IMG/VR virus record: IMGVR_UViG_3300017752_000176
Location: 1-23,155 of that record
Direction: 5' to 3' (one strand)
Origin: a virus
DNA: 23,155 nucleotides
Below the pieces are notes generated by a model. That model did not search any database. It saw only the letters and a list, made by a program, of their open reading frames with translations, and had not been told where the DNA came from. Made by a program: the position numbers and the translations under genes. Positions 8,058-23,155 of this stretch are shown here, piece by piece. How positions within the stretch are numbered: position 1 is the stretch's first letter; each line of letters starts with the position of its first letter.

Positions 8058-9917
8058 TTAACTTATAAACATTGGAACAAATGTAGAATGAGCTTGCTGA
8101 GCCTTAGAGTTATTCATGTCATGAAATACCTTAACCATCCAACTTCCAAGCACTAAAGCTGAGTACGAATCCTTCCTCGCTTTGTCAGGTCCAGTCTGCC
8201 TTCTAAGCTCTGGAGGTAGCCCAAAAGTCTGCGTTCCCTGAGGTGAAGTTGTAATCTGAATTAATGCGCATTGATTTTTCGTCATGTTAATCATGTCGTA
8301 TTGATGTTCTATAAAGTCTATCATTTTTGCTTGACCACTTTGCTTTGACTCTTCTTCAGATAGTCTAAGAAATTTTAATTTATTGATTGGTATTTTTTTA
8401 GCTCTTTGTTTATTGTAAGCTTCATCAATTGCTCTAGAACCAAACCAAATACGTTTATGATCAAAATTTGCTTGTAATAACTCATTAGCTTTTCTGATCC
8501 AATCAGATGTAGGCTTTCTTAGGAATAAATACTTATAATCTTTTTTATTGTACTGCACTTTCGCAGTTCTTAATTCATCTTTATAATTTTCCATTTTATC
8601 GAAATCGCCGTCAACACCTTTTATTTTTATATTGCTAGTTTTAAATAACTCACTCTCATTAACTGCATTGATAAATTGAACGCCTCCATTGTAATCTCCA
8701 ACTATAGCAATGATATTAAAGTTTTTAATAAGATAATGAAAATAAAAAATATGTTCTCTCAGTGGAGTTCCGGACATTGCATAAGAGTGAACTAAGGTTG
8801 AGGTACCTTTACTTTTATGATACTTTAATACATGCATAGCAAAATCATCACTACTTTCACTTTCTGACCAAGATGGGTCAAAAGCTAATATATATTCATC
8901 CTCAGGCTGACCTTTAATTTCTACATGAGGATCTTCTCCATCTGGCACGGTACAAGCGGCCATACGAGAAGTTTTAAAGTATCCAGAACTATCATCAGTA
9001 AATAATGCTCCAAATTCACGTTCAAACTGAGATTGACTCATTGTAGCTTTAGCTTGAGTTATAAGGTTTTGGTCGTAAAGCTGCTTGGGTGCGCAATCAT
9101 AAGAAAACTGCATGATACATCTTGTAGCTTTATCTGTTTGATTTTCAATTAAACCCTCAAATTGACTATACAACTTATACATGTATTCAAATTTATAACT
9201 AGCAGACGAAAGCATGATAAGTTTATTGTTTGGCCATATATATCTTTCTTCTTCAGTCATCTTGCCTTGCTCAATTAGTTTTGTTTCAAGGTTATACAAA
9301 TCTTCTCTTTGAGTGGGGTTCTCAACAACAGAAAGGAAAGGAACAATAACTTCATTATAGATTCTTTCCGGCATCAATAAGAACTCATCAATAATGATTC
9401 TATGAAACCTAAATCCTCGAAGCTTGGATCCATCTCCTAATGGCAAGGCTCTAATCCTACTTCTCCCAATTTCCATTAACCATTCATCATTGCTTTTTGA
9501 TTTTTTAGTTATACAATTCGCTAGCATTCTAGCTTCAGGCTTTGCGGCGATGTCTTCAATTTTTTTAAATATTTGTTTGGACTGCCTAAATGATGCGGCC
9601 AATATCCCAATCTCAACACCCTGATGTAGTATAGCATCAAGAAAAGCGTATACACCAGTAGTAAACGATTTACTCATACCACGACTCCAGACCCCCATAA
9701 AGTAATCAGTTTCAAACATAGCCTTAATAGCCATATGCTGAAAAGGAAACAAATCTACCCCACCCACTAAGCTAGTAGTGAAAGTTATGTTGTCTTTTAA
9801 AAATTTATAAAGATTTTGCTTTGCCTCGTTTTCATCGAGGAAGCCCTCTAAGTTCAGAGTTTCTTGATTGACGTCTTCCTTAGGTCGACGAGTTTGATTT
9901 CCTTCATCCCAAGCCAT
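8058..9917 (-). CDS. terL: Terminase large subunit (packaging ATPase-nuclease)
   Basis: A 619-residue protein with both terminase domains. ATPase: Walker A is WSRGMSKSF at 77-85 (variant P-loop with upstream Arg), Walker B is IIIDEF at 174-179 with the catalytic Glu178, and the coupling motif LSSAS is at 236-240. RNase H-like nuclease: Asp347 (ILAFDPSW), Asp408 (IVGDYNG) and Asp583 (RKDSYSAL) are the expected three acidic metal ligands. It cuts concatemeric DNA and pumps it into the prohead through the portal. Length is close to T4 gp17 (610 residues). The start overlaps the end of the upstream nuclease gene by 14 bases, suggesting coupling; the leader (TAGATAAAA) has no Shine-Dalgarno. A 47-base A/T-rich gap follows before the portal gene. 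Confidence 0.97.
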   Translation of the reverse strand: MAWDEGNQTRRPKEDVNQETLNLEGFLDENEAKQNLYKFLKDNITFTTSLVGGVDLFPFQHMAIKAMFETDYFMGVWSRGMSKSFTTGVYAFLDAILHQGVEIGILAASFRQSKQIFKKIEDIAAKPEARMLANCITKKSKSNDEWLMEIGRSRIRALPLGDGSKLRGFRFHRIIIDEFLLMPERIYNEVIVPFLSVVENPTQREDLYNLETKLIEQGKMTEEERYIWPNNKLIMLSSASYKFEYMYKLYSQFEGLIENQTDKATRCIMQFSYDCAPKQLYDQNLITQAKATMSQSQFEREFGALFTDDSSGYFKTSRMAACTVPDGEDPHVEIKGQPEDEYILAFDPSWSESESSDDFAMHVLKYHKSKGTSTLVHSYAMSGTPLREHIFYFHYLIKNFNIIAIVGDYNGGVQFINAVNESELFKTSNIKIKGVDGDFDKMENYKDELRTAKVQYNKKDYKYLFLRKPTSDWIRKANELLQANFDHKRIWFGSRAIDEAYNKQRAKKIPINKLKFLRLSEEESKQSGQAKMIDFIEHQYDMINMTKNQCALIQITTSPQGTQTFGLPPELRRQTGPDKARKDSYSALVLGSWMVKVFHDMNNSKAQQAHSTFVPMFIS

Positions 9918-10836
9918 TTTTATCTATATAATATTGTAAATCAACATCCCATAATCTCTTACCTAAGGTTAAAATCTTAGGGATGACTGATTGAGAGTTT
10001 GTTCGAGTACCTGTAAAAACAAATTGACAACTTCCAGCAAACTCGTGAGATATTAATCTCATGTTGTGGTATATGAATTCTAAATTTGATTTGTGTGGGC
10101 CGAAAGCATTATTTTTATATAACCTATTAAGATCGCTTTCCACAACTATGAATAAGTATGAGTCAAAATCTTGTACTCTCTGAAGTTCTCTTTTGAACCT
10201 AGCTAAACCTCCCGAAAGAGTACCCTTAAAATCAGAATCAGATTTTCTATCTACATAAGTATAGTTATAATCATCACCCCCAACCGTATAATCTCCGAAA
10301 TCTAACTTTAGATCTTCAGACACATTAAAGATTAATGGTTTTTGTTCTCTTGTGTCAACAAAAATCTTTAAATTCTCAAAATGTTCATCTTCCTTAAAAA
10401 AGCTTTCATCAATCGCACTACCATGTAGCGGTCTTACTCCAGCTGCTTTACATGCTGCTCCATACGAGCCAAAAGCATATTTGTAGACATCTATGTCTGG
10501 CAACTTGTTGATCTTTAACTCTAAATGGTTTGGAGCGTACTTAAGACCCTTTAATTCTATTCTTTGTTTTAATTTTTTTAATGCGTATTTTGCAGCCGTC
10601 TCTTTATCTTGAGACATGCACCATTTTATTAATTGACTGCGAGTAGAAAAGTCATTATTAAAGTAATCATCTTTCTTTTTGAAAGGTAATGGTTTTCCTG
10701 TTAATAAATTATTACGTGGATAAAATGTAGTATAGTAAGTAGCTAAATCCATCTTGTGCTTCTTGAGATGTATATGAAGCCCTTTTTCTGTGTCAAACTC
10801 TTCGTGACACACTTGACATTTAAAATTAGATGACAT
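9904..10836 (-). CDS. C2H2 zinc finger - ERCC4-type nuclease
   Basis: A 310-residue protein with two recognisable parts. An N-terminal classical C2H2 finger spans residues 7-27: C7-x2-C10-x12-H23-x3-H27, with the core hydrophobics Phe14 and Leu20. The C-terminal part (about 155-275) is an ERCC4/XPF-type nuclease: VDTREQKP at 160-167, GDYTVGG at 181-187 and DRKSDSD at 196-202. The XPF signature GDxnERKx3D is therefore present with a conservative Glu-to-Asp change at 196. Such enzymes cut branched or flapped DNA. The region between (about 45-140) is basic and unassigned. It overlaps the upstream gene by 11 bases and TerL by 14 bases, so it is part of the packaging operon and may resolve replication branches before or during packaging. 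This role is inference. Confidence 0.88.
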   Translation of the reverse strand: MSSNFKCQVCHEEFDTEKGLHIHLKKHKMDLATYYTTFYPRNNLLTGKPLPFKKKDDYFNNDFSTRSQLIKWCMSQDKETAAKYALKKLKQRIELKGLKYAPNHLELKINKLPDIDVYKYAFGSYGAACKAAGVRPLHGSAIDESFFKEDEHFENLKIFVDTREQKPLIFNVSEDLKLDFGDYTVGGDDYNYTYVDRKSDSDFKGTLSGGLARFKRELQRVQDFDSYLFIVVESDLNRLYKNNAFGPHKSNLEFIYHNMRLISHEFAGSCQFVFTGTRTNSQSVIPKILTLGKRLWDVDLQYYIDKNGLG

Positions 10837-11872
10837 CGCTTTTAGATATACCTAATATTCTTGACTTCCAAGAATTCATAGATTCCAAATTATCAGCTTC
10901 TTCCTTGATAGCCTTCTTTTGCATGTTTGCCATCTTGACCATTAGTTTTCGCTCTTCTTCGTTTTGAAAGCTTTCAACTAGTGACAGTATTGATGCGTTT
11001 TGATCTTGACGTTGAGATATCCTTTTTGATCTGTCTCCAGCAAGTCTTTGTATTAAAGACTCCTGTCGTTTTTCGCATTGATTATACTCTTCACTTTTGG
11101 TTTTTAATAGTTCTGATAGCCTTACCGTCAGCTCTTGCTGTTCGTCTGCTTCATCAAACATTCTGTTTAATTTCTCCATGTGTGAAGATATGTTTTTTAA
11201 GTTTATATAATCAACACATACATTTACATACAAATTAACTTCATCAGTAGTCAAGTCTGGCTTGTCCCAAGTAGCTCGAATAAATTCAGCCTCAAATAAA
11301 TCTTGATCTTCTTCCTTATGATAATTACTTATAATCTGAGTAAATCTTGGGGATTTTAAAAAACGAAATAAAGATTCAATTGATTTTTTTTCCATTGCTT
11401 TCATTTCTCCTTCTCTTAGTCCTGCATCAGTATATAGGTTGACCTTCTCTAAGCATTCAGCTATATTTTTAGGTTCATCGTATTTGTTGCGTTCAGCTCG
11501 ATTTTCTTCGCGTTTCCTTTTTTTGGCCGCATCCAAATAACTTCCAACAGTTCTTTGTTCCCTGCCTAGCTTTTTAACTTCGTCATCAGGGAAAAGTAGT
11601 TGTGCAATTTGATAACTACTCATTCCGTCTTGAGAGTATTGCTCGATAAAGTTTTTCTGCTCTTCTGTTAATACTATAGGTTTAACATTTTCATGGACTG
11701 AAGTTTTATATTTTATCTCTTTAGAAACTAAATATTCCCTTACAGCTCTACCCTGCTTTGATCTACCATCTATAGTACCATCTTTAAATGTCGCGCGTGT
11801 TAATTCAATTAAATCTGGAATTTTATGAAAATTGTCGTCAATAAATTTTTTTTGTTCTTCGGTTAAATTCAT
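10826..11872 (-). CDS. HTH / coiled-coil protein, candidate terminase small subunit
   Basis: A 348-residue protein with no family that I can name for certain. Residues 3-52 and 68-118 form an internal duplication. Both start LTEEQKxFI, continue through a likely helix-turn-helix, and end near a basic patch (GRSKQGRAVREYL and GREQRTVGSYLDAAKKRK), like DNA-binding repeats. The middle (150-235) is helical and acidic; the C-terminus (235-330) is charged coiled coil suited to oligomers. Small terminases have an N-terminal DNA-binding part followed by oligomerisation helices. This gene lies two genes upstream of TerL, where no other small terminase is visible, so that role is a fair guess. The start ATG overlaps the sigma factor stop (ATGA), indicating coupled translation. 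Confidence 0.5.
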   Translation of the reverse strand: MNLTEEQKKFIDDNFHKIPDLIELTRATFKDGTIDGRSKQGRAVREYLVSKEIKYKTSVHENVKPIVLTEEQKNFIEQYSQDGMSSYQIAQLLFPDDEVKKLGREQRTVGSYLDAAKKRKREENRAERNKYDEPKNIAECLEKVNLYTDAGLREGEMKAMEKKSIESLFRFLKSPRFTQIISNYHKEEDQDLFEAEFIRATWDKPDLTTDEVNLYVNVCVDYINLKNISSHMEKLNRMFDEADEQQELTVRLSELLKTKSEEYNQCEKRQESLIQRLAGDRSKRISQRQDQNASILSLVESFQNEEERKLMVKMANMQKKAIKEEADNLESMNSWKSRILGISKSDVI

Positions 11873-12567
11873 AATATTATATCTTTGTTTTTGATTATTT
11901 TAATCACTTTTTCTTTGAAGAATTTGCGCATATTTTTGATTTGCTTGTATCCAGCCTTTCTTCCTGATTCATTTGTCTTGTATCCTAATTCTTTAGCAAC
12001 AATGTCTTCATTTATATTATCTATAAATAACATTTTATATATCTTGTACTGTCGATCAGACAAGTCTTCTTTTAAATGTTTTTGTACCGAGTCGATTGCT
12101 AAATCCACGTTAAACTCATTTGATTTAAATGTTGCTGATTCATATTCTTGAGAGTCTAACCTTAGGGGTATTTTAACATCGTGCGCACCCTTTTTACTTT
12201 TTTCCCACTTTTTATAAAGTGGACAACTACTATCTTGAGATCCGCTTTTAGTAAACGAACATAAATTATCACCACCAATAGATGTATCAAAAGGGCAATT
12301 ACTACATGGTTTTGCAAAGTTTAAATAAAAGTTTCTTAAAATATTTTTAAATTGATTACTTATAATTTTATTTATCCAAGGCTTTAAATCTCTCTTTTGA
12401 TCCCATTTCTCCCATTTTTGATAAATATGTAACCTTATTATTTGCTCAACATCCTCAAAAGCGATCCAGGGCATAGAATCAAGAAACCATTTGTTTTTAC
12501 GTTTACGAATTTCTTGATTGATTACTTCAATTTGATCTTCGAATATAAGTTTTTCAGGTCTACCCAT
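11869..12567 (-). CDS. Phage RNA polymerase sigma factor with Cys4 insert
   Basis: A 232-residue sigma70-family protein of ECF-like size. Region 2 lies at about 34-80: AFEDVEQIIRLHIYQKWEKW, then LKPWINKIISNQFKNILR, the usual core-binding and -10-contact pattern. Region 4 lies at about 167-225: LSDRQYKIYKML, then NEDIVAKELGYKTNESGRKAGYKQIKNMRKFF, a helix-turn-helix for -35 DNA or an activator. Between them lies C88-x2-C91-x11-C103-x11-C115, a likely zinc knuckle not normal for sigma factors. It probably redirects host RNA polymerase to phage promoters, most likely late ones since it lies beside virion genes, a role like T4 gp55. It overlaps the upstream Zn-ribbon gene by 8 bases and the downstream gene by the ATGA overlap. 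Confidence 0.82.
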   Translation of the reverse strand: MGRPEKLIFEDQIEVINQEIRKRKNKWFLDSMPWIAFEDVEQIIRLHIYQKWEKWDQKRDLKPWINKIISNQFKNILRNFYLNFAKPCSNCPFDTSIGGDNLCSFTKSGSQDSSCPLYKKWEKSKKGAHDVKIPLRLDSQEYESATFKSNEFNVDLAIDSVQKHLKEDLSDRQYKIYKMLFIDNINEDIVAKELGYKTNESGRKAGYKQIKNMRKFFKEKVIKIIKNKDIIL

Positions 12568-13551: not shown

Positions 13552-16500
13552 TTATTCTAAAGTAATCGGTAAAAACATTTCTTCATTTGAATTAAATGTG
13601 TCAAAGTAATCGCCCGTAGAACCCGCACTAACACTAGGGGTTGGTGTTATAGTTGGTGTTATGCTTGGTGTCGGGGTAACTGTTGCTGTTGGAGTTGGAG
13701 TGGGAGATGGGCATACTCCTAACACATTTATAGTACCGCGCATACCTGCATGATTTTCGCACTGATATTGATACTTGTCAATTGCTTCATCGCAAGGCAC
13801 TTGCCATGTTAAGGAGTATGTATGATCTTCATATGGACCCTCAGTTAAATCTGTTTTTACTACTCCAGAGAGTGGAGCCATAGCTTGGCCTAAGTCGTTA
13901 TAATTAGTTATCTTAAGCGGATGAGATAAGAGGTTTGGTTCATCACCGGTAACAAATATTGTTAATGTTTCTCCGCGATTAACATCAATGCATCCAAATA
14001 AACCACCATTACCGCTTGAATCACTTGTAGTATATTTATACTCTGAATGACCAGGACTAATATATTCAGATTCTACTGTTATAGTTAAAGGCGATGATAC
14101 ACACCCCAACTTTGTAGGAGTTGCAGTTGGAGTTGGAGTGGTTGAAGGCGTTGGAGTTATACTTGGAGTAGGGTAAAATGATTCACAAACTACTGGATTA
14201 AACTCTAAATTATTGTTTCCGCCCATGTATCCATGGTTATAACATTCGTAAGACAAAGAGCCACCAAATTCGCTTCCTATATTTAATGTTACGTTGCCAT
14301 AGTAAAAATTATGAACTCTCGAATCATTACCTGATGCATAAACTGATTGTTTTGACCCAAATAAAGAGTCGCCAGTATAGCTAAAATCTGAATAACTTCC
14401 AGTAATATCACCTATGTATTCATCATAAAATGCAATTGGGTGCTCAATAGGCACATTTAAGAATTTAAACTCTCCGTTACCCATATAATGTTTCGATTCC
14501 TTATTATTAAATATATACTTACCATCTTGAATTGACACATTATTTTGGCCAGACAAGCAATTATATACTACGGTTGAAGGAGTTATAGTGGGCGTTGGAG
14601 TAACTGGTGGTGTCGAACTTGGTGTTGGGGTTGGACTAGGTGTTACTGGGTCAAAAGTTTTTAATAAACTAAAAAATAAAGACCCAGATTTATAAAAAGT
14701 TAAAGTTAATTCTCTGTTACTCGCAAGAGAAATGACAATTTGACCTCCAGATGAACTAATGGATTGTTGATTTGAAGTTCCGTAATCCCAAAGTAAGGAG
14801 CCGTTATCTTCTTTAACAACAAAACCTTGACCTCCTATCGTTAAAGTAGCTTCAACATTTGAACCTAAAACTTGAATGTATTGTTCGTTAGAGAGTTCGT
14901 ATATGTCGATAGATTTATTTTCTCCGTTTTGCAGCGAATTTACAATACTCAAAGATTTTAACCCTAATATAGCGCTTCCGTTTTTAATTTTATAAAAATA
15001 TAATTGAAACTCTACTCCAGAATCTAAAGTTACATTAACTTTGTCTTGAATGTTTAAAGTTGTGGATTGTGAGCTACCAAAATCAAAAGTAATTCTTTTG
15101 CTGCTTGGTTCATACTTTAATGTTATTGGAGTTTCATCTATAACGATTTGTTTTTGCCATCCATGCAATTCGTACAGCTCGAAGAATTTTATTCGCGAGA
15201 AATCTGAAGAGTAGTACTTGTGTAGGTCAGGATTATCTTCGTTACCAAAATATAAATCTACAGTTGGGTAATCATCGCACAGCAAACCGTGCATTCTTGG
15301 CATTCTTATATTGATCCATCCATCTGGATCTTCTTTTTGCACACCGCAGTACTCTAATCTATTTTCGGGTAAAAATCTTAACCTTTTAATGGTTTCACCT
15401 TCTTTTAATTCAAATATTATTTTATGGCTGTGATTTCTATACCACCAACCCTTTACATTGGTTCTTCCTCCTTGTCTTACTTTGTATCTAAAAATACAAT
15501 ATGGATTATCTTGAGTTAAAATAATTTCCATTTTTTTCATATCATGAATTTCATCAAGCTCAATATTTAGCAAACTCATATTCTGCATGTAAACCTTGTC
15601 GAAAGTAGTGTTCATCTTATGGTTCCATCGATAGTAATCTAAATTATAAGTAAATCCTATTGATGAGCCATCAATCACTTTATTCCAACCGTGATCCAAT
15701 CTCCAGCTCGTAATAACTTCGTTGTTATCGAAAGTTGAATAACTCGGAAAGTATTTATAGTCTTCTTGAGTATAATACCTCCAATCTCTATAATAGCATT
15801 GATAAGAGGAATAGACGCTTGAGTTATCATTTGGTCTTGCGGGAGGAGCTAAGAATATATTATCACTATCTGATCCAGGCCCTTTGTACCATGTGTAAGT
15901 ACAATCACTGTGATGTGAAGATTGGCCTATGTAACAATTAATTCCCTCCTGACCAAGATGTGAAATATAATTTTTGTTTTTAAAATCCCTAATCGTAAAC
16001 CTACTGTAAGTGCCATAGCCCGCGTTACTTTGTTCTACATTTTTTGCGGCGCTTCTAAACGTAGGAAAAGCCGGCATTGTAGAGTAGGAAGCCAAGTCTA
16101 AAGTTGGGTCATCGCTTAATGGTATTGGTATTGGATCCAATAATGGAGTAGAGTCATCAATGTCAGGTATACCGTCATTATCGCTATCCAATAGTGTTGA
16201 AGTTGGGGTAATACTTGGAGTAATACTTGGAGTGATTGTTGGAGTGGCTGTATTACTTGGAGTGATTGTTGGAGTGGCTGTATTACTTGGAGTGATTGTT
16301 GGAGTGGCTGTATTACTTGGAGTGATTGTTGGAGTGGCTGTATTACTTGGAGTAATTGTTGAAGTAACTGTATTGGTTGGAGTAATTGTTGGAGTAACTG
16401 TATTCGTTGGGGTAATTGTTAGAGTAACTGTATTCGTTGGGGTAATTGTTGGGGTGACTGTATTCGTTGGAGTAATTGTTGGAGTAACTGTATTACTTGG

Positions 16501-17142
16501 AGTAATGCTTGGCGTCGGAAGCGTATCTTCACCCGCATTATAAACAACTTCCTCTAATTGCACAAAACTAACATGATCAGGACTTCCACTAATATAATCA
16601 ATACTGCTTAAATCTACTCCAGACAAAAATAAATCTGTACCTTCAGACTTAAACAGTAGTGATGTGCTTAATGATGTAGATTTGCCTTGATTGTATAGTG
16701 ATAATATTTTATTATTTTCTCCATTGTAAAAATCTACTTTTACATATTGTTCTGCATCACCTTCAGTGATAAAGGATAATGTACTAGACATTCTGTATGT
16801 ATTACCAATAATAAGATTATTAAAAGTTAAATCGTTAATAATTGAATTAGAGCTATACGATGCAGTTAAATATTTTGTCTCGAAATTTAAATTCAACTCA
16901 CTACTCGACCCACCACCAACTCCATCAAGAAATCCATAATCTGTAAGATCACTTGCGATCTTTTCGATGCCTGTGAAATGTATACCGCTTTCGTTATCGT
17001 TTACTACAAGATAATCTCCACTGTGACCTTGGTAACCTGAGGGGGTGTCTTGTATTCCAGTGATTGTAATGTCCTGTAAGCTCTGACGTACAGCTGAACC
17101 CATTTCAGAGTATATATTTAACATTTGTTGTGGTGTCATCAT
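13552..17142 (-). CDS. Large modular fibre protein with cupredoxin-like domains
   Basis: A 1196-residue adhesin-like protein. N-terminal module: residues 30-71 carry the DTPSGYQGHSGDYL unit shared with the other three fibre genes. Then comes a beta-rich part (81-205), a Pro/Thr linker of nine decapeptides (217-306), and a calcium-binding type DSDNDGIPDIDD loop at 319-330, as in thrombospondin-3 repeats. A large unassigned beta-rich region (345-830) is rich in Tyr and Trp. Two Pro/Thr-separated domains follow with a full type-1 copper ligand set: His901, Cys967, His970, Met973, and His1074, Cys1128, His1131, Met1134. A final Pro/Thr stretch (1144-1170) and short tail end the protein. It is probably the outermost part of a tail or head fibre. 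It starts 4 bases after the previous stop, without a Shine-Dalgarno. Confidence 0.78.
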   Translation of the reverse strand: MMTPQQMLNIYSEMGSAVRQSLQDITITGIQDTPSGYQGHSGDYLVVNDNESGIHFTGIEKIASDLTDYGFLDGVGGGSSSELNLNFETKYLTASYSSNSIINDLTFNNLIIGNTYRMSSTLSFITEGDAEQYVKVDFYNGENNKILSLYNQGKSTSLSTSLLFKSEGTDLFLSGVDLSSIDYISGSPDHVSFVQLEEVVYNAGEDTLPTPSITPSNTVTPTITPTNTVTPTITPTNTVTLTITPTNTVTPTITPTNTVTSTITPSNTATPTITPSNTATPTITPSNTATPTITPSNTATPTITPSITPSITPTSTLLDSDNDGIPDIDDSTPLLDPIPIPLSDDPTLDLASYSTMPAFPTFRSAAKNVEQSNAGYGTYSRFTIRDFKNKNYISHLGQEGINCYIGQSSHHSDCTYTWYKGPGSDSDNIFLAPPARPNDNSSVYSSYQCYYRDWRYYTQEDYKYFPSYSTFDNNEVITSWRLDHGWNKVIDGSSIGFTYNLDYYRWNHKMNTTFDKVYMQNMSLLNIELDEIHDMKKMEIILTQDNPYCIFRYKVRQGGRTNVKGWWYRNHSHKIIFELKEGETIKRLRFLPENRLEYCGVQKEDPDGWINIRMPRMHGLLCDDYPTVDLYFGNEDNPDLHKYYSSDFSRIKFFELYELHGWQKQIVIDETPITLKYEPSSKRITFDFGSSQSTTLNIQDKVNVTLDSGVEFQLYFYKIKNGSAILGLKSLSIVNSLQNGENKSIDIYELSNEQYIQVLGSNVEATLTIGGQGFVVKEDNGSLLWDYGTSNQQSISSSGGQIVISLASNRELTLTFYKSGSLFFSLLKTFDPVTPSPTPTPSSTPPVTPTPTITPSTVVYNCLSGQNNVSIQDGKYIFNNKESKHYMGNGEFKFLNVPIEHPIAFYDEYIGDITGSYSDFSYTGDSLFGSKQSVYASGNDSRVHNFYYGNVTLNIGSEFGGSLSYECYNHGYMGGNNNLEFNPVVCESFYPTPSITPTPSTTPTPTATPTKLGCVSSPLTITVESEYISPGHSEYKYTTSDSSGNGGLFGCIDVNRGETLTIFVTGDEPNLLSHPLKITNYNDLGQAMAPLSGVVKTDLTEGPYEDHTYSLTWQVPCDEAIDKYQYQCENHAGMRGTINVLGVCPSPTPTPTATVTPTPSITPTITPTPSVSAGSTGDYFDTFNSNEEMFLPITLE
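16231..16500 (-). repeat. 30-bp tandem repeat, nine copies (Pro/Thr linker)
   Basis: Nine contiguous 30-bp units encode decapeptides of the type NTVTPTITPT / NTATPTITPS. The four units at 16231-16350 are identical at the DNA level; the five at 16351-16500 have diverged by a few bases each. In frame with the fibre gene, so copy-number change alters linker length without a frameshift. Confidence 0.95.
16933..17050 (-). repeat. 118-bp fibre module, copy in the 1196-residue fibre gene
   Basis: One of four dispersed, similar copies that lie near the start of each fibre gene. This copy encodes DTPSGYQGHSGDYL through DLTDYGF. By eye it is about 90% identical in DNA to the copy at 21188-21305. Confidence 0.9.
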
Positions 17143-17146
17143 AATA

Positions 17147-18931
17147 TTAGTTACAGTTAAATACTCCAGTTATAGATAAATCCTTATTAAATGTTACTTG
17201 AGCATTAGATGGATTCGAGCTATTAGATATCAAACTTTGTTCACTTGTTTTCCACTCTACAAATTGGCATGAGCTTTCATCTAATTGACCTCGAGGACTG
17301 GAAAGTGAGCTAGACACTAAAGTGTTATAGTCAGTAGAGCTAAACATAAATAAATCAAGATTATTTTTTGGAAAAACAGTAGTTTGAGAGGAAAATAGAT
17401 TATCAACATAACCCAAAGCAGGGTTGGCTTGTATTTCGCCTTTTGTAAATAATGTATTTAAATCTCCAGGTACACCCATTTCTAGTAGTGTATGTTTTAT
17501 TGGATTAGTGTTATTTTGTAATAAAATGTATTTACCATTACCAAAAATTCGATTACCTATTGTCTTTAATGAACCAAATGAATCAAGGTCAACTACAGCG
17601 CTAGGTTCAGGCAGAAATTCATCTACCACTTGATTGGGCGTCGTTGGGCTATGAGGCATATTTCCAGGTAAAAGGTAAGGTGTTTCTAAGTCGTAACTAA
17701 CTAGGTAGCTGAGTTTATCATCAGTGTCATTGGCATAATTCTTTTTAAACAATACTATTAATGTGCTTCCATTGTTTGTGAAGTTCATAGATACAAGATC
17801 ATATCTCTTGTTATGGGCATACCATCTCTGGTAATACCCAAAATAAGAATCTTGTGAGTTGCCTACTGCATTCCTCGCATACCAATCGTTATTTGGGTTG
17901 ATAGAATACAAGTCACCAGGTGTATCTAAAGTTTTTCTTTCTATACCTCCATGATAATAAACATATACAACTGAAGGGTCATCTGTTGTTACTACCCCCA
18001 ATCTTCCAGCTAAATTAGGATAATACTGGTTACTACTTTCAGATCGAATTTGTTTAAATTTTGATCTTGTGCCAGTACTTAAATCGTATGGTTGAGTAAA
18101 TAAATACTCATGAACATACAAGCTTTGATAACCAAATCCAATAGCTCGTAATCCATCTTCTGAGAAATGCATGTCTGATATTTGAGAGGGATAATTTATA
18201 AATTCGTCTCTCAAACGCATTGATTGTGGATTAAATTGATTGTATGGATCAGAGTTGTTTAAAGTAAATACTTGAGTAGCTGTAGGTGAATCGTAGTGAA
18301 CTTGAGGGTGTAATACGCTATCTGGAGCAATTGCCCATTGATAATCGGACTCAGCGAAATTCAATTTTATTGAGTCATCTGGCACTCCTTGAAATTCAGT
18401 AAATAAGCAAGCTTCGTGTAATTGTGGAGAACTTAACCCTTGCAAGGAAAGAGAAAATGTATTGCTAGCATTTTCAGTGATTACTTCATCTTTGTAAATG
18501 ATATAATTTGTCTTATCTTCTAGCGAAGCTACACAGCCTGGTAGGCCGTCAGATTCGCCTGGGGGTAATGTAGTGATCGTATCTTGTTTAATGATTTTTG
18601 TCCATTCGCCATCGCATGAATGATACAGTTCACATCCAGAGGCTACTATTTTACCGTCGTTTTCTGTGGCATCTGGCAAATCGGTATATTTTGGTATATC
18701 TGAACTACTTCCTCCAAAACCATAATCTGTTAGGTCGCTTGCAATCTTTTCGATACCTGTGAAATGTATGCCTGTTTCACTGTCATTAATCACAAGATAT
18801 TCGCCACTGTGACCTTGATAATCTGTTGGTGTATCATGTAAGCCAGAAAAATACAATTGACCGCTAACATAAGTTCTAATAACTGAACCCATGTCCGACA
18901 TGGCTTGTATATGTGAACTTACTTTACTCAT
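17147..18931 (-). CDS. Fibre/adhesin family protein
   Basis: A 594-residue member of the fibre family. It has the N-terminal DTPTDYQGHSGEYL module (32-72), then a paired-cysteine module with GCELYHSCDGEW at 99-110 that is nearly identical to the one in the right-edge gene. A module starting PGCVASLED (131) continues to DYQWAI (196). An insert of about 350 residues (205-550) has scattered propeller-like strands (MHFSEDGLRAIGFG, VSMNFTNNGSTLIVLF). The C-terminus is a divergent InlB/Listeria-Bacteroides-type repeat, CQFVEW to LSITGVFNC (555-593). It is probably a receptor-binding or virion-decorating fibre. The insert falls between the YQWA motif and the InlB-like repeat, unlike in its neighbour. 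The downstream fibre gene starts 4 bases after this stop. Confidence 0.72.
   Translation of the reverse strand: MSKVSSHIQAMSDMGSVIRTYVSGQLYFSGLHDTPTDYQGHSGEYLVINDSETGIHFTGIEKIASDLTDYGFGGSSSDIPKYTDLPDATENDGKIVASGCELYHSCDGEWTKIIKQDTITTLPPGESDGLPGCVASLEDKTNYIIYKDEVITENASNTFSLSLQGLSSPQLHEACLFTEFQGVPDDSIKLNFAESDYQWAIAPDSVLHPQVHYDSPTATQVFTLNNSDPYNQFNPQSMRLRDEFINYPSQISDMHFSEDGLRAIGFGYQSLYVHEYLFTQPYDLSTGTRSKFKQIRSESSNQYYPNLAGRLGVVTTDDPSVVYVYYHGGIERKTLDTPGDLYSINPNNDWYARNAVGNSQDSYFGYYQRWYAHNKRYDLVSMNFTNNGSTLIVLFKKNYANDTDDKLSYLVSYDLETPYLLPGNMPHSPTTPNQVVDEFLPEPSAVVDLDSFGSLKTIGNRIFGNGKYILLQNNTNPIKHTLLEMGVPGDLNTLFTKGEIQANPALGYVDNLFSSQTTVFPKNNLDLFMFSSTDYNTLVSSSLSSPRGQLDESSCQFVEWKTSEQSLISNSSNPSNAQVTFNKDLSITGVFNCN
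18720..18837 (-). repeat. 118-bp fibre module, copy in the 594-residue fibre gene
   Basis: Encodes DTPTDYQGHSGEYL through DLTDYGF. It is the most diverged of the four copies in its second half (VINDSETG instead of VNDNESG). Confidence 0.88.
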
Positions 18932-18936
18932 CTCAA

Positions 18937-21393
18937 TTAAATTACACTAAAGTTTCCGGTTATCGAGGTTGAATCTGTGATTATTAAAGTGGTTTCTAAA
19001 CTGTTTGGATCAGCGAAATTTCCACCCGTCCATCCGTCAAATGTACAATTTGTACTAGGAAAAGCTTGCACAGTAATTTGTGTATCTGTGGGAAATAAGC
19101 CCCATTTGTATCCAGTATCTTTTATTCTTACGACCCCACAAGAAGAAATGTTTGAGTTATCGGATATTGTTCCTCCGCTCACCAAATTTGTTGAACATTC
19201 CTCTGTGAAGTAAAATTCATCATCACTCGATTCATTATAACCTACATAACCAATAATACTATTTAATTCTGGATTTGGCTGTTTAGACATTGTGTATCCA
19301 CCGTGCAAGGCAGCGGGGGAACTACTACTACTGTGGAATTGTTTTGATATTTTTGTCCAGCCAGACCCCGTCCACTTAGCGAAATTCATATTAGTCGTAT
19401 AACTCGATTCTGGGCGCATAGGTCGACTAGCTAACATTAACAATGTACCATCCTCGGATATACCTCCTTGTTGTGTATTGTTATTCAAAGATCCATCTAT
19501 TGGTTTTGAAAAGTTAAATCCAAATGTACCTTCATCAAACAATAAGTCTCCAAGTCTATTCCAAGATTCTCCATTCCATGTTATTACTCCAACAGGTCCA
19601 GTTATACGATCAACAAAACTAATTGTTCTTTGTGCAGGAGTATAATAATTGTGATTTGAATTAAATGACAGTGAATCTGGTAATTGATAAAGTATAGCAT
19701 TTCCATCTCTACTTAAATCAAAAGTCATTCCTAAATGAATAGATATAGGTAAACTCCAATCAATTCCTCCTGTTATTACCGCTTCTTGTATGCCAAGATC
19801 AAAGGAGCTTACATTTTCTTTTTCAGACCAAATGTTCTGAGAGTCTCTACGAAATACTTTTATTCCATGAAAATAAGCCGTCCTAGTATTAGAATCTGGC
19901 TGTCCAGTTGGGTTGCTATTGCTAACTCCACCTACATCGTAACTTAAATTCCCCCCTATGCTGTATCCACACTTTACAGCAATGGTACTGCCATCTTTAC
20001 TTAACTTTAAATCTTGAAAGCCTATACCGTTAAATGTTTGAATTAAATTCCAAACTTGAGTAGATTCGTTATAATTGTATATAAATAAAGCTTTAGGGTT
20101 TGTATCAAAATAATTATGAAGAAAAGAAACCGCTAAAGTTTTACCGTCTCCGCTTAATTGAACATTTATTAACCTTTCCTCAATGTCATTGTAGCCTTCA
20201 TTATTAGAAAAATAATCACTGTTTGTTAGAGGCAATTCTATTACATGTTTTTCTGTAGTGCTATTGGTGTCTAAATTTAATTCGAATATAACTATCGCAC
20301 CATGACCACCATTTGTATTTGAAAAACGGGGCTCTACCGCTGCAACAATTGTTCCATCATCATTCATTGAAATTGACCTACCCCAAAGGTCAGTAGCTAT
20401 ACTAGGTTTTAATTCTGCTATATGATTTGCTAATTGAAGCGATCCATTACTAGCATTAATTTTCAAGACATCTACAAATGGAGTTGAAATCCCTTCGTCA
20501 TCGCCCCATCCAAAAGCTATAACTGTTCCACTTCTATTAAACTCACAAGAAACTCCAGGCCCCCTCAATTTATAAAGGTTTCCTCTTCGATTGCCCCAAG
20601 TTGTATTGCTTCCTCGTATTTGATTAGTTTCTTGTTGAACAGCGCAGGATAAAAAATTATAGCTATTCGTAATATTCTGCCAAGTTCCTTCAGAACTGGT
20701 ATCATTTGATTGTCCGTCAATATTTTGAAATGTACAGACTTCGTGCAGTACATCGTCTGTGGTTTGACCGTTTAAGCTAGCTTGTAATATTAAGGATGAA
20801 TTTTCATTTAATACAGTGTCCGTGTAGTCTATGTATTGCAATGATTCTCCTGCAGTTGTAACACAAGCAGGATATAAAGTTTGCTCAGCTTCTGATAAAG
20901 GTAATCTATCTATAGAAACTAATGGTTTCCATTCTCCATCGCAAGAGATATACAGCTCGCATCCAACTTGTACGATCTCTCCATCATAATCTATAGCTGG
21001 AACAGGTAAATCGTTAGAAGAATTATACTCTTTTGGTATAACTGGAATATCTTTAGCTATACCTGTAGAATCAATATACTCTAATCCAGTTTCAGTTGAC
21101 CTTAAATAGTATCCAGATTGATAATTTATCGGAGTATCATGCAAGCCAGTGAAGTCTGTAATGCTTTCACTATCATTACCTCCGAAACCATAATCTGTTA
21201 GATCACTTGCAATCTTTTCGATACCTGTGAAATGTATGCCGCTTTCGTTATCGTTAACTATGAGGTAATCTCCACTGTGTCCTTGGTAGCCTGTTGGGGT
21301 ATCTTTTAATTCAAAAAGTCCTGTTGGCACATAATCTTTTACTGCGAAAAGTAGATCTTCGATTCCTGCTAAGCTTTGTTTGGTTGATGACAT
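18937..21393 (-). CDS. Fibre/adhesin protein with propeller-like repeats
   Basis: An 818-residue fibre-family protein. It carries the shared DTPTGYQGHSGDYL module (31-70) plus a second, degenerate DTPINYQSGYYL unit (86-97), and the GCELYISCDGEW cysteine module (144-155). The PACVTT module (175) follows. Residues 279-656 hold at least six strand motifs of the form 'x-S-x-D-G-x-x-(I/L)-A': NRSGTVIAFG, NDDGTIVAAV, SGDGKTLAVS, SKDGSTIAVK, SRDGNAILYQ and SEDGTLLMLA. This is the pattern of a beta-propeller built from WD40-like blades, perhaps six or seven. The C-terminus (752-818) repeats the YKWGLF and InlB-like CTFDGW ... SITGNF pattern. It is probably host-surface or polysaccharide binding; no hydrolase residues are recognised. 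The start follows the right-edge gene stop by 15 bases. Confidence 0.74.
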   Translation of the reverse strand: MSSTKQSLAGIEDLLFAVKDYVPTGLFELKDTPTGYQGHSGDYLIVNDNESGIHFTGIEKIASDLTDYGFGGNDSESITDFTGLHDTPINYQSGYYLRSTETGLEYIDSTGIAKDIPVIPKEYNSSNDLPVPAIDYDGEIVQVGCELYISCDGEWKPLVSIDRLPLSEAEQTLYPACVTTAGESLQYIDYTDTVLNENSSLILQASLNGQTTDDVLHEVCTFQNIDGQSNDTSSEGTWQNITNSYNFLSCAVQQETNQIRGSNTTWGNRRGNLYKLRGPGVSCEFNRSGTVIAFGWGDDEGISTPFVDVLKINASNGSLQLANHIAELKPSIATDLWGRSISMNDDGTIVAAVEPRFSNTNGGHGAIVIFELNLDTNSTTEKHVIELPLTNSDYFSNNEGYNDIEERLINVQLSGDGKTLAVSFLHNYFDTNPKALFIYNYNESTQVWNLIQTFNGIGFQDLKLSKDGSTIAVKCGYSIGGNLSYDVGGVSNSNPTGQPDSNTRTAYFHGIKVFRRDSQNIWSEKENVSSFDLGIQEAVITGGIDWSLPISIHLGMTFDLSRDGNAILYQLPDSLSFNSNHNYYTPAQRTISFVDRITGPVGVITWNGESWNRLGDLLFDEGTFGFNFSKPIDGSLNNNTQQGGISEDGTLLMLASRPMRPESSYTTNMNFAKWTGSGWTKISKQFHSSSSSPAALHGGYTMSKQPNPELNSIIGYVGYNESSDDEFYFTEECSTNLVSGGTISDNSNISSCGVVRIKDTGYKWGLFPTDTQITVQAFPSTNCTFDGWTGGNFADPNSLETTLIITDSTSITGNFSVI
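21188..21305 (-). repeat. 118-bp fibre module, copy in the 818-residue fibre gene
   Basis: Encodes DTPTGYQGHSGDYL through DLTDYGF. It is closest to the copy at 16933-17050, sharing the NESGIHFTGIEKIASD wording with only scattered, mostly third-position DNA changes. Confidence 0.9.
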
Positions 21394-21408: not shown

Positions 21409-23155
21409 TTAACAGGGATTAATTGACAGGTTTGTTGGCGGGGTGAAGTTGCTTGTGTATACTGCTTTTTTACTGATGCGTACATCTTGGATTTGGCCTG
21501 CGAAATAATCTTGAATTGAAGAAATAGTTGACCTTGTTCGCCTGCCTATTTCAAGCGGGAGATTTGAATGTCTATATGTCGTAAATGCAGTTTCAGCCAA
21601 TTTCGAACCATCAACAAATCCTCTTAGAGTGTTATTCTTTCGTGATACTGCAATATGGTACCATCTTTTTGTTTCTAACGGAAAAAGTAAATTCACTCCA
21701 AGACCTGAAAAGCTTCCGCTAGAATTAGAGTAAAGAAATGTAAACAGTCCCCGATGGTCTAAAAAGAATAACCAACCATTATTACTACCTTCATTTGTTG
21801 CGTTACCAATTATACTTGCACCGGAACCGTGACCGGATGTATGTAGGTGACTTAAGGTATCAAAGTTAACCCAAAATTCTATTGTAATGTCTCCAGCGCC
21901 TAAATTCCAATCATTCGACGCAGGCAAACTCAAATAGTCCCCGTTGCCATCAAAATTCATTGTGTCACCACCAAACAATGTGGCAGTATTGTCTACAACT
22001 GTATCACCAACAGTTGTGATCACATGCTCGTTATCACTCTTATCAGCGATAGTTTCTCCTGTGTCAGGTTGAAGATGTAAAGCTACATCTTCACAACTTG
22101 GTTGACTAGGAGCAATCAAACACTCAAAACTTCCAGTGATCGACAAATCAGTATCCACAAAAACAGTAGTATTCGCACTACTAGAATCTCCAAAATTTGC
22201 ATTACTACTCGTCCACTCGCTAAATACACAATCTTTTCCTTGACCGTCAGAATATCCCTCTGCAGAAAGGTTTATCGTTTGCGGGCCCGCAAACATTCCC
22301 CACTTGTAAGTAGTTTCATCAATAACTACCGTATTTCTTTCGTCTTCTAGTTTTGATTCTGGAAACAAACAGACATCGAAAATTAGATCAGAAATTTTTG
22401 TTCCGTTATTTAAAATCGATTCAGCTGTTAAACCTAAGTTGTCCGCTAAAAATCCATCTTTGTACTCTTGGTATTGATTGTATTCTTCGAGATTCGTTAC
22501 ACATCCTGGAGCTTCCACTGGTGGAGGTATCGATTCGCCACCAATCTTACTCCATGTTCCATTGCATGAGTGATATAGGTCACATCCAGACGCTACTATT
22601 TTACCATCGTTTTCTGTGACATCTGGAAGATCTGTGTAGCTTGGTATGGTTGAACTTCCTCCACCAAATCCATAATCTGTAAGGTCTTGAGCTATTTTTT
22701 TGATACCTGTGAAATGTATGCCAGTTTCGTTGTCGTTTACTACAAGGTAACCTCCACTGTGTCCTTGGTAATCTGCTGGTGTATCATGTAACCCAGTAAA
22801 TCCAGTCGCTCCTTCAGGAAAATCGATCTCTGCGGATACTTCTTCGGCTAAACCTGTGATATCAACATATTCTAAACCGTCTGCGGTAGAACGCAAGTAT
22901 TTACCTTCTTGGTAATCTGCTGGTGTATCATGTAACCCAGTAAATCCAGTCGCTCCTTCAGGAAAATCGATCTCTGCGGATACTTCTTCAGCTAAACCTG
23001 TGATATCAACATACTCTAAACCGTCTGCGGTAGAACGTAAGTATTTACCTTCTTGGTAATCTGCTGGTGTATCATGTAACCCAGTAAATCCAGTCGCTCC
23101 TTCAGGAAAATCGATCTCTGCGGATACTTCTTCGGCTAAACCTGTGATATCAACA
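21409..23155 (-). CDS. LamG-type fibre protein, 5' end outside the window
   Basis: The frame is open to the right edge, so 581 C-terminal residues are visible. It opens with tandem 48-residue units (GLHDTPADYQEGKYLRST type), then the shared DTPADYQGHSGGYL module, the GCDLYHSCNGTW cysteine module, the PGCVTNLEE and YKWGMF modules, and an InlB-like repeat (CVFSEW to SITGSFEC). A LamG/concanavalin-A-like beta-sandwich fills the last ~230 residues (21415-22095): MNFDGNGDYLSLPAS, ITIEFWVNFD, WYHIAVSRKNNTLRGFVDG and the closing FAGQIQDVRISKKAVYT are the usual LamG strands. Such domains bind glycans or proteins, so this may be a receptor-binding tip. It is the only one of the four family members ending in LamG. 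Confidence 0.82.
   Translation of the reverse strand, partial: VDITGLAEEVSAEIDFPEGATGFTGLHDTPADYQEGKYLRSTADGLEYVDITGLAEEVSAEIDFPEGATGFTGLHDTPADYQEGKYLRSTADGLEYVDITGLAEEVSAEIDFPEGATGFTGLHDTPADYQGHSGGYLVVNDNETGIHFTGIKKIAQDLTDYGFGGGSSTIPSYTDLPDVTENDGKIVASGCDLYHSCNGTWSKIGGESIPPPVEAPGCVTNLEEYNQYQEYKDGFLADNLGLTAESILNNGTKISDLIFDVCLFPESKLEDERNTVVIDETTYKWGMFAGPQTINLSAEGYSDGQGKDCVFSEWTSSNANFGDSSSANTTVFVDTDLSITGSFECLIAPSQPSCEDVALHLQPDTGETIADKSDNEHVITTVGDTVVDNTATLFGGDTMNFDGNGDYLSLPASNDWNLGAGDITIEFWVNFDTLSHLHTSGHGSGASIIGNATNEGSNNGWLFFLDHRGLFTFLYSNSSGSFSGLGVNLLFPLETKRWYHIAVSRKNNTLRGFVDGSKLAETAFTTYRHSNLPLEIGRRTRSTISSIQDYFAGQIQDVRISKKAVYTSNFTPPTNLSINPC
22670..22787 (-). repeat. 118-bp fibre module, copy in the right-edge gene
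   Basis: Encodes DTPADYQGHSGGYL through DLTDYGF, with KKIAQD in place of EKIASD. It directly abuts the 144-bp tandem array, whose units begin with the same DTPADYQ wording. Confidence 0.9.
22775..23155 (-). repeat. 144-bp tandem repeat (48-residue fibre units)
   Basis: Units start at 22775, 22919 and 23063 and the array runs off the right edge (2.6 copies visible). The two complete copies differ at only three bases, all synonymous (Ala GCC/GCT, Glu GAA/GAG, Leu TTG/TTA). Each unit encodes a DTPADYQEGKYLRST core and a DITGLAEEVSAEIDFPEGA segment. Confidence 0.95.

Follow-up and report, generated by a model that had tools for sequence, protein, structure and literature searches.

Two predicted cupredoxin-like domains with amicyanin-type ligand spacing near the C-terminal end of a phage fibre protein

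The window analyzed here is an IMG/VR virus record of 23155 bases. Almost all of its genes lie on the minus strand, and among their products are a terminase, other proteins of packaging and head type, and a set of fibre-like proteins. One of the fibre-like ORFs raises the question of why a phage fibre should carry, twice and close to its C-terminus, residues in the order of a type-1 copper site. A first-pass annotation had assigned two copper-site cupredoxin domains to window positions 13714–14559, and these coordinates are correct for fibre residues 862–1143. The two domains (hereafter D1 and D2) and the features around them, all on the minus strand, are as follows.

13552–17142, minus strand: fibre protein, an ORF of 1196 amino acids that carries D1 and D2
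16930–17061, minus strand: N-terminal module, fibre residues 28–71, of the direct repeat family D3 and common to three neighbouring fibre ORFs
14560–14649, minus strand: Pro/Thr linker before D1, residues 832–861 (from sequence)
14188–14559, minus strand: D1, first cupredoxin-like domain, residues 862–985 (AlphaFold2, Foldseek, match to the D2-family profile, relatives in viral contigs)
14440–14442, minus strand: His901, first predicted ligand of D1 (HPIAF), an invariant column in alignment A2
14224–14244, minus strand: C967-x2-H970-x2-M973, predicted ligand loop of D1 (YECYNHGYM; sequence and alignment)
14107–14184, minus strand: Pro/Thr linker between D1 and D2, residues 987–1012 (from sequence)
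13714–14106, minus strand: D2, second cupredoxin-like domain, residues 1013–1143 (PDB profile matches, AlphaFold2, Foldseek)
13921–13923, minus strand: His1074, first predicted ligand of D2 (SHPLKI; sequence and alignment)
13741–13761, minus strand: C1128-x2-H1131-x2-M1134, predicted ligand loop of D2 (YQCENHAGM; amicyanin spacing)
13627–13710, minus strand: Pro/Thr linker after D2, residues 1145–1172 (from sequence)

The fibre ORF adjoins three other fibre-like ORFs with which it has the D3 module in common (DTPxGYQGHSGDYLVVNDNESGIHFTGIEKIASDLTDYGF), and the four copies lie at window positions 16925–17070, 18711–18856, 21179–21324, and 22661–22806. This module is probably a common virion anchor. 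It is followed in the fibre by a Pro/Thr repeat (residues ~209–314), a large central region, D1, D2, and a short C-terminal tail whose sequence recurs unchanged in the relative L002. Residues 319–336 (DSDNDGIPDIDDSTPLLD; window 16135–16188, minus strand), located after the Pro/Thr stalk, resemble a thrombospondin type 3 calcium-binding repeat. A Cys pair flanks each domain (C862/C986 for D1 and C1014/C1144 for D2), D2 also contains C1051 and C1117, and disulfides are possible. As a single sequence, the whole fibre matched no family in Pfam and only repeat or unknown-function families in PHROGs, and a sequence search of D1 and D2 together against the PDB gave no match.

The C-x2-H-x2-M motif occurs exactly twice in the fibre, at positions 967 and 1128. 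Residue mapping placed His901, C967, H970, M973, His1074, C1128, H1131, and M1134 where the first-pass annotation had put them, and both domains contain the type-1 copper ligand set His, Cys, His, and Met in this order, with the last three residues within one loop. The Met spacing had been described as two residues shorter than that of plastocyanin; it is not unusual, because the loop of amicyanin (CTPHPFM in the profile alignments) has exactly the same spacing. In both AlphaFold2 models, a strand finishes with the Cys residue, the next loop contains the other His of the motif and the Met, and the first His lies ahead of another strand; relative to the modeled strands, this is the order seen in cupredoxins.

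A 42-sequence profile of D2 matched copper nitrite reductase (E-value 2.9e-6), plastocyanin (2.9e-5), amicyanin (3.5e-4), rusticyanin (7.6e-4), and the CuA domain of cytochrome oxidase (3.7e-3) in the PDB, as well as auracyanin and pseudoazurin. With a nine-sequence profile (A1), amicyanin was matched at 8.4e-5, with the Cys, His, and Met residues aligned. The AlphaFold2 model of D2 has nine strands and moderate confidence (pLDDT 73.5, pTM 0.71), and its Foldseek search gave 19 matches with E-values of 0.001 or lower, all of them proteins with cupredoxin-fold domains, at modest TM-scores of 0.4 to 0.5. Sequence profiles and predicted fold together strongly support a cupredoxin fold for D2. The domain scored 15.4 bits against Pfam Copper-bind (PF00127), below the gathering threshold of 21.2, and 14.1 bits against the NCBIfam amicyanin equivalog TIGR02657, below the cut-off of 110.2; by these scores, D2 resembles amicyanin but falls outside the equivalog. 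A tblastn search of phage records with D2 gave 168 matches, all in marine or cyanobacterial phages, and those listed were mainly Kyanoviridae gp9, the baseplate wedge tail fibre connector, with 27 to 43% identity. The statement in the first-pass annotation that similar strings occur in marine phage structural proteins was correct, for cyanophage gp9 and for many others; S-SSM5 and P-RSM4 are examples of cyanophages with the domain in gp9. In the D2 alignment, H62, C116, H119, and M122 (D2 numbering) are kept in every sequence.

D1 is more divergent. Its AlphaFold2 model has a pLDDT of 83.2 and a pTM of 0.81, and the best Foldseek matches were a multicopper oxidase (E-value 0.012) and amicyanin (E-value 0.048, probability 0.90, TM-score 0.52); these E-values, from 0.012 to 0.05, are weak, and nothing was found below 0.001. 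Single-sequence searches with D1 alone gave nothing significant, no solved cupredoxin was matched by sequence, and there was no score against PF00127. By contrast, a profile–profile comparison of D1 with the D2 family gave an E-value of 2e-6 and a probability of 89.5%, with all four ligands in register, which shows at the level of sequence that the two domains are homologous. In viral contigs, D1 has 52 relatives, with 34 to 48% identity in the alignment used, and none was found in cultured phage records. D1 is moderately supported as a divergent cupredoxin and is less certain than D2. On fold prediction, sequence profiles, and ligand conservation, the proposed cupredoxin assignment stands strongly for D2 and moderately for D1; the suggested fold search placed cupredoxins at the top for D2, whereas for D1 they were the best matches with weak E-values.

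We next consider how far the ligands are conserved. The first 52 D1 relatives had been fetched partly with the peptide ECYNHGYM as the search pattern, and the full conservation of this peptide among them was not counted for that reason. In replacement samples, contigs were picked by the first His motif alone (HPIAFHN or GHPFWIKT). C-x2-H-x2-M was present in 40 of 41 true, untruncated homologues in the HPIAFHN sample, the sole exception (L157) having lost Cys, His, and Met together, and in 98 of 101 in the GHPFWIKT sample, where the Cys is missing from all three exceptions along with one or more of the other ligands. Three of the four motif-less HPIAFHN matches (L152, L163, and L166) were rejected as cases of ligand loss, as they are apparently unrelated proteins in which the peptide occurs by chance; L287 in the GHPFWIKT sample was rejected likewise, its downstream sequence being unrelated.

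A scan of all fetched loci with the D2 profile yielded 219 unique domains in which a residue occupies each ligand position, part of this sample having been fetched with patterns that contain ligands. All four ligands are kept in 214 of these domains and two or three are lost in the remaining five, with no loss of one ligand only among the 219. Homologues lacking Cys, His, or Met had been named beforehand as evidence against the assignment; the site is kept in the great majority, and a few ligand-less copies do exist. After thinning to 123 sequences of <80% identity, the four ligands were within the seven most conserved columns, the other three being a Tyr, a Gly, and the Pro that follows the first His; the Met was kept in 98% of the domains, and the clustering of losses was equaled in none of 100000 permutations, a procedure that ignores phylogeny. 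Two or more ligands are lost together, often with Cys replaced by Ser, in L070, L071, L126, L157, L206, L251, L268, and L310, and these cases differ from one another in which ligands are gone. Judging from their sequences, they would be natural metal-free variants that could be used as controls. The four ligands are thus conserved jointly and lost jointly. Because they are not lost singly, they appear to serve a single joint function, of which metal binding is the simplest; because a few members lack the site entirely, the fold can evidently serve without it. Judged by the matches of the D2-family profile to cupredoxins in the PDB, the D1–D2 alignment, and the place of the ligands among the most conserved columns, the motif goes beyond chance.

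The family was defined here by an H-P start motif, a Y-x-C-x2-H-x2-M end motif, and a profile match, all of which D1 and D2 show, and we refer to it as the marine phage HP...YxCxxHxxM virion domain family. Kyanoviridae genomes usually give two matches, one in gp9 and one in the adjacent protein. In L318 (GU071097.1, 76111–80271) and the matching Kyanoviridae stretches, the protein after gp9, annotated as baseplate wedge initiator gp7 in one record, carries a second, divergent copy of the HPMRFSTT...YYYCANHRYM type. Multi-domain structural proteins contain up to five matches (G005). The BFVD models that matched include long tail fibre subunits, tail-fibre-like proteins, and giant-virus beta-sandwich proteins; among the last, A0A481Z6J5, A0A481YWX9, and A0A481YVH3, from relatives of Pithovirus and Marseillevirus, match the D2 model with E-values in the 1e-4 range, hinting that giant viruses also have this predicted fold. 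A subtilisin-like S8 protease of the marine virus AG-345-P14 (L056:4144-6321) has the same cupredoxin-like domain at its end. A contig scan with the A1 alignment also detected the domain in surface-type proteins on two MAG contigs labeled Bacteroidetes and Chryseobacterium (Bacteroidota). This occurrence across phage, giant-virus, protease, and cellular surface proteins makes it a mobile extracellular module that is common in marine viruses. None of the Pfam and NCBIfam models tested covers the domain above its own cut-off; by sequence, the same domain is common but unlabeled in marine phage tail and baseplate proteins. The wider family, which the first-pass annotation had left out along with the exact amicyanin spacing and the ligand-less copies, is of greater interest than the one fibre.

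Among known proteins, amicyanin (Paracoccus type; PDB 1aac and 1sfd) is the closest parallel. It has a C-x2-H-x2-M loop of identical length and the same strand–Cys–loop–His–Met–strand order, and it is the best small-domain fold match for D1; however, it is a free periplasmic electron carrier with its first His in a P-H context, whereas D1 and D2 are C-terminal parts of a phage fibre with H-P. The C-terminal domain of Kyanoviridae gp9 is a direct homologue of D2 (34–38% identity) with the four ligands kept, but gp9 is annotated only as a baseplate connector, and a single domain ends this protein of 406 to 410 amino acids, unlike the tandem heads on Pro/Thr linkers in the fibre. Plastocyanin, rusticyanin, copper nitrite reductase, and CuA domains have the cupredoxin fold and, in most cases, the Cys-His2-Met set, but their ligand loops are longer or different and their context is catalysis or electron transfer. 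Loop length between Cys and Met is a known means of tuning cupredoxin sites (PMC4059628). Cyanophages carry the plastocyanin gene petE (PMC3037559), likewise a phage-encoded cupredoxin, but this metabolic gene is of host origin, is expressed inside infected cells, and does not supply a virion part. In T4 gp37-type tail fibres, HxH iron sites also place a metal in a phage fibre, as is predicted for D1 and D2, and iron-binding HxH motifs in tail fibres have been proposed to help phages attach to their hosts (PMC11705849); by contrast with D1 and D2, the gp37-type sites hold octahedral iron between His pairs in a trimeric fibre and are unrelated in fold and ligand set. No report of cupredoxin domains in phage virion proteins was found in the open-licence literature, which is weak evidence of novelty because the scope was limited to open-licence papers.

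The reading that we favor, with somewhat better than even confidence, is that D1 and D2 are cupredoxin-fold domains with predicted amicyanin-type Cys-His2-Met sites that act as copper-stabilized adhesion heads on the exposed end of the fibre. Strung there on flexible Pro/Thr linkers, each domain would hold one metal ion. Copper is the most likely metal because of the Met ligand and the amicyanin loop, and from sequence, copper binding by D1 and D2 is likely. The ion, acquired extracellularly or from the host after lysis, would tie the ligand loop to the strand of the first His, so that a small compact head would withstand unfolding and proteolysis while turning an adhesive surface toward the host or the host matrix. 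The gain would be the stability of an exposed, receptor-facing domain, and electron transfer would not be required. Fibre proteins are made in a copper-poor, reducing cytoplasm, which counts against copper; because cytoplasmic copper is scarce, loading would probably take place after lysis. The weak Foldseek E-values of D1 and its lack of a sequence match to solved cupredoxins, the moderate model confidence and the TM-scores of D2, the Pfam and NCBIfam cut-offs not reached, and the ligand-less members are also counted against such heads.

The same cytoplasm makes zinc a competitor. Phage proteins fold in a compartment with far more available zinc than copper, Cys-His2-Met sites bind other soft metals in vitro, and the conservation and co-loss of the ligands fit any metal; these points speak for a cupredoxin-fold site with zinc or another ion in a purely structural role. 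We nevertheless regard it as unlikely, since both the amicyanin loop, in its exact form, and the kept Met are characteristic of copper sites, and Met is rarely conserved in zinc sites. That the domains are metal-free beta-sandwich adhesion modules, in which the motif is a relic of the fold kept for packing, agrees with the existence of the eight ligand-less copies in the same family. Residues kept only for packing should erode one by one, whereas the 219 domains show double and triple losses and no single ones, and this joint loss argues against such a relic and makes it rather improbable.

A docking role, also suggested in the first-pass annotation, would carry the Trojan Horse hypothesis proposed for iron in tail fibres over to copper: the copper-loaded head would mimic metal cargo for a metal-uptake receptor of the host. 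The published proposal for iron-binding HxH motifs in tail fibres (PMC11705849) and the location of the domains on marine phage fibres and baseplate proteins speak for it. However, the family also occurs in gp9, the gp9-adjacent protein, the S8 protease, and cellular surface proteins, which makes it unlikely that a role tied to one receptor holds throughout, and the metal in a type-1 site is largely buried; we give this role little credence. Least probable is redox chemistry, such as electron transfer at the host surface or the oxidation of copper or iron. The main role of cupredoxins is electron transfer (PMC4059628), but a partner redox domain was not found in the fibre or its neighbors, which makes this role unlikely, and there is neither a trinuclear copper site nor a known electron donor for the fibre tip.

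If the sites of these predicted stabilized heads do hold copper, a kind of metalloprotein known from respiration and photosynthesis would also be structural in marine phages, and this would extend to the baseplate connector of the cyanophages of Synechococcus and Prochlorococcus. Copper would then join the debate on metals in phage tails, color would provide a simple spectroscopic test for a virion protein, and a motif left unlabeled by current databases would be explained. As a tentative extension, which we hold to be possible rather than probable, copper-loaded cupredoxin heads could be in general use as components of the tails and baseplates of marine phages; many of their virions would then each bind several copper ions tightly and together make up an unrecognized pool of ligand-bound copper in seawater.

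Three other genes of the window were also noted. The product of 9904–10836 (minus strand), of 310 amino acids, has an N-terminal C2H2 zinc finger and an ERCC4/Hef-type nuclease-like stretch (VDTREQKPL...VDRKSDSDF), with a weak match to Hef (E-value 0.00068). A Sigma-70-like protein with a Cys-rich insert is encoded at 11869–12567 (minus strand), just upstream of the packaging genes; it matches Sigma70_r2 at the Pfam cut-off and is possibly a phage late sigma factor, judging from its sequence. The main plus-strand gene of the window, at 416–1072, encodes a DnaJ-domain-like protein with weak HscB/DnaJ matches.
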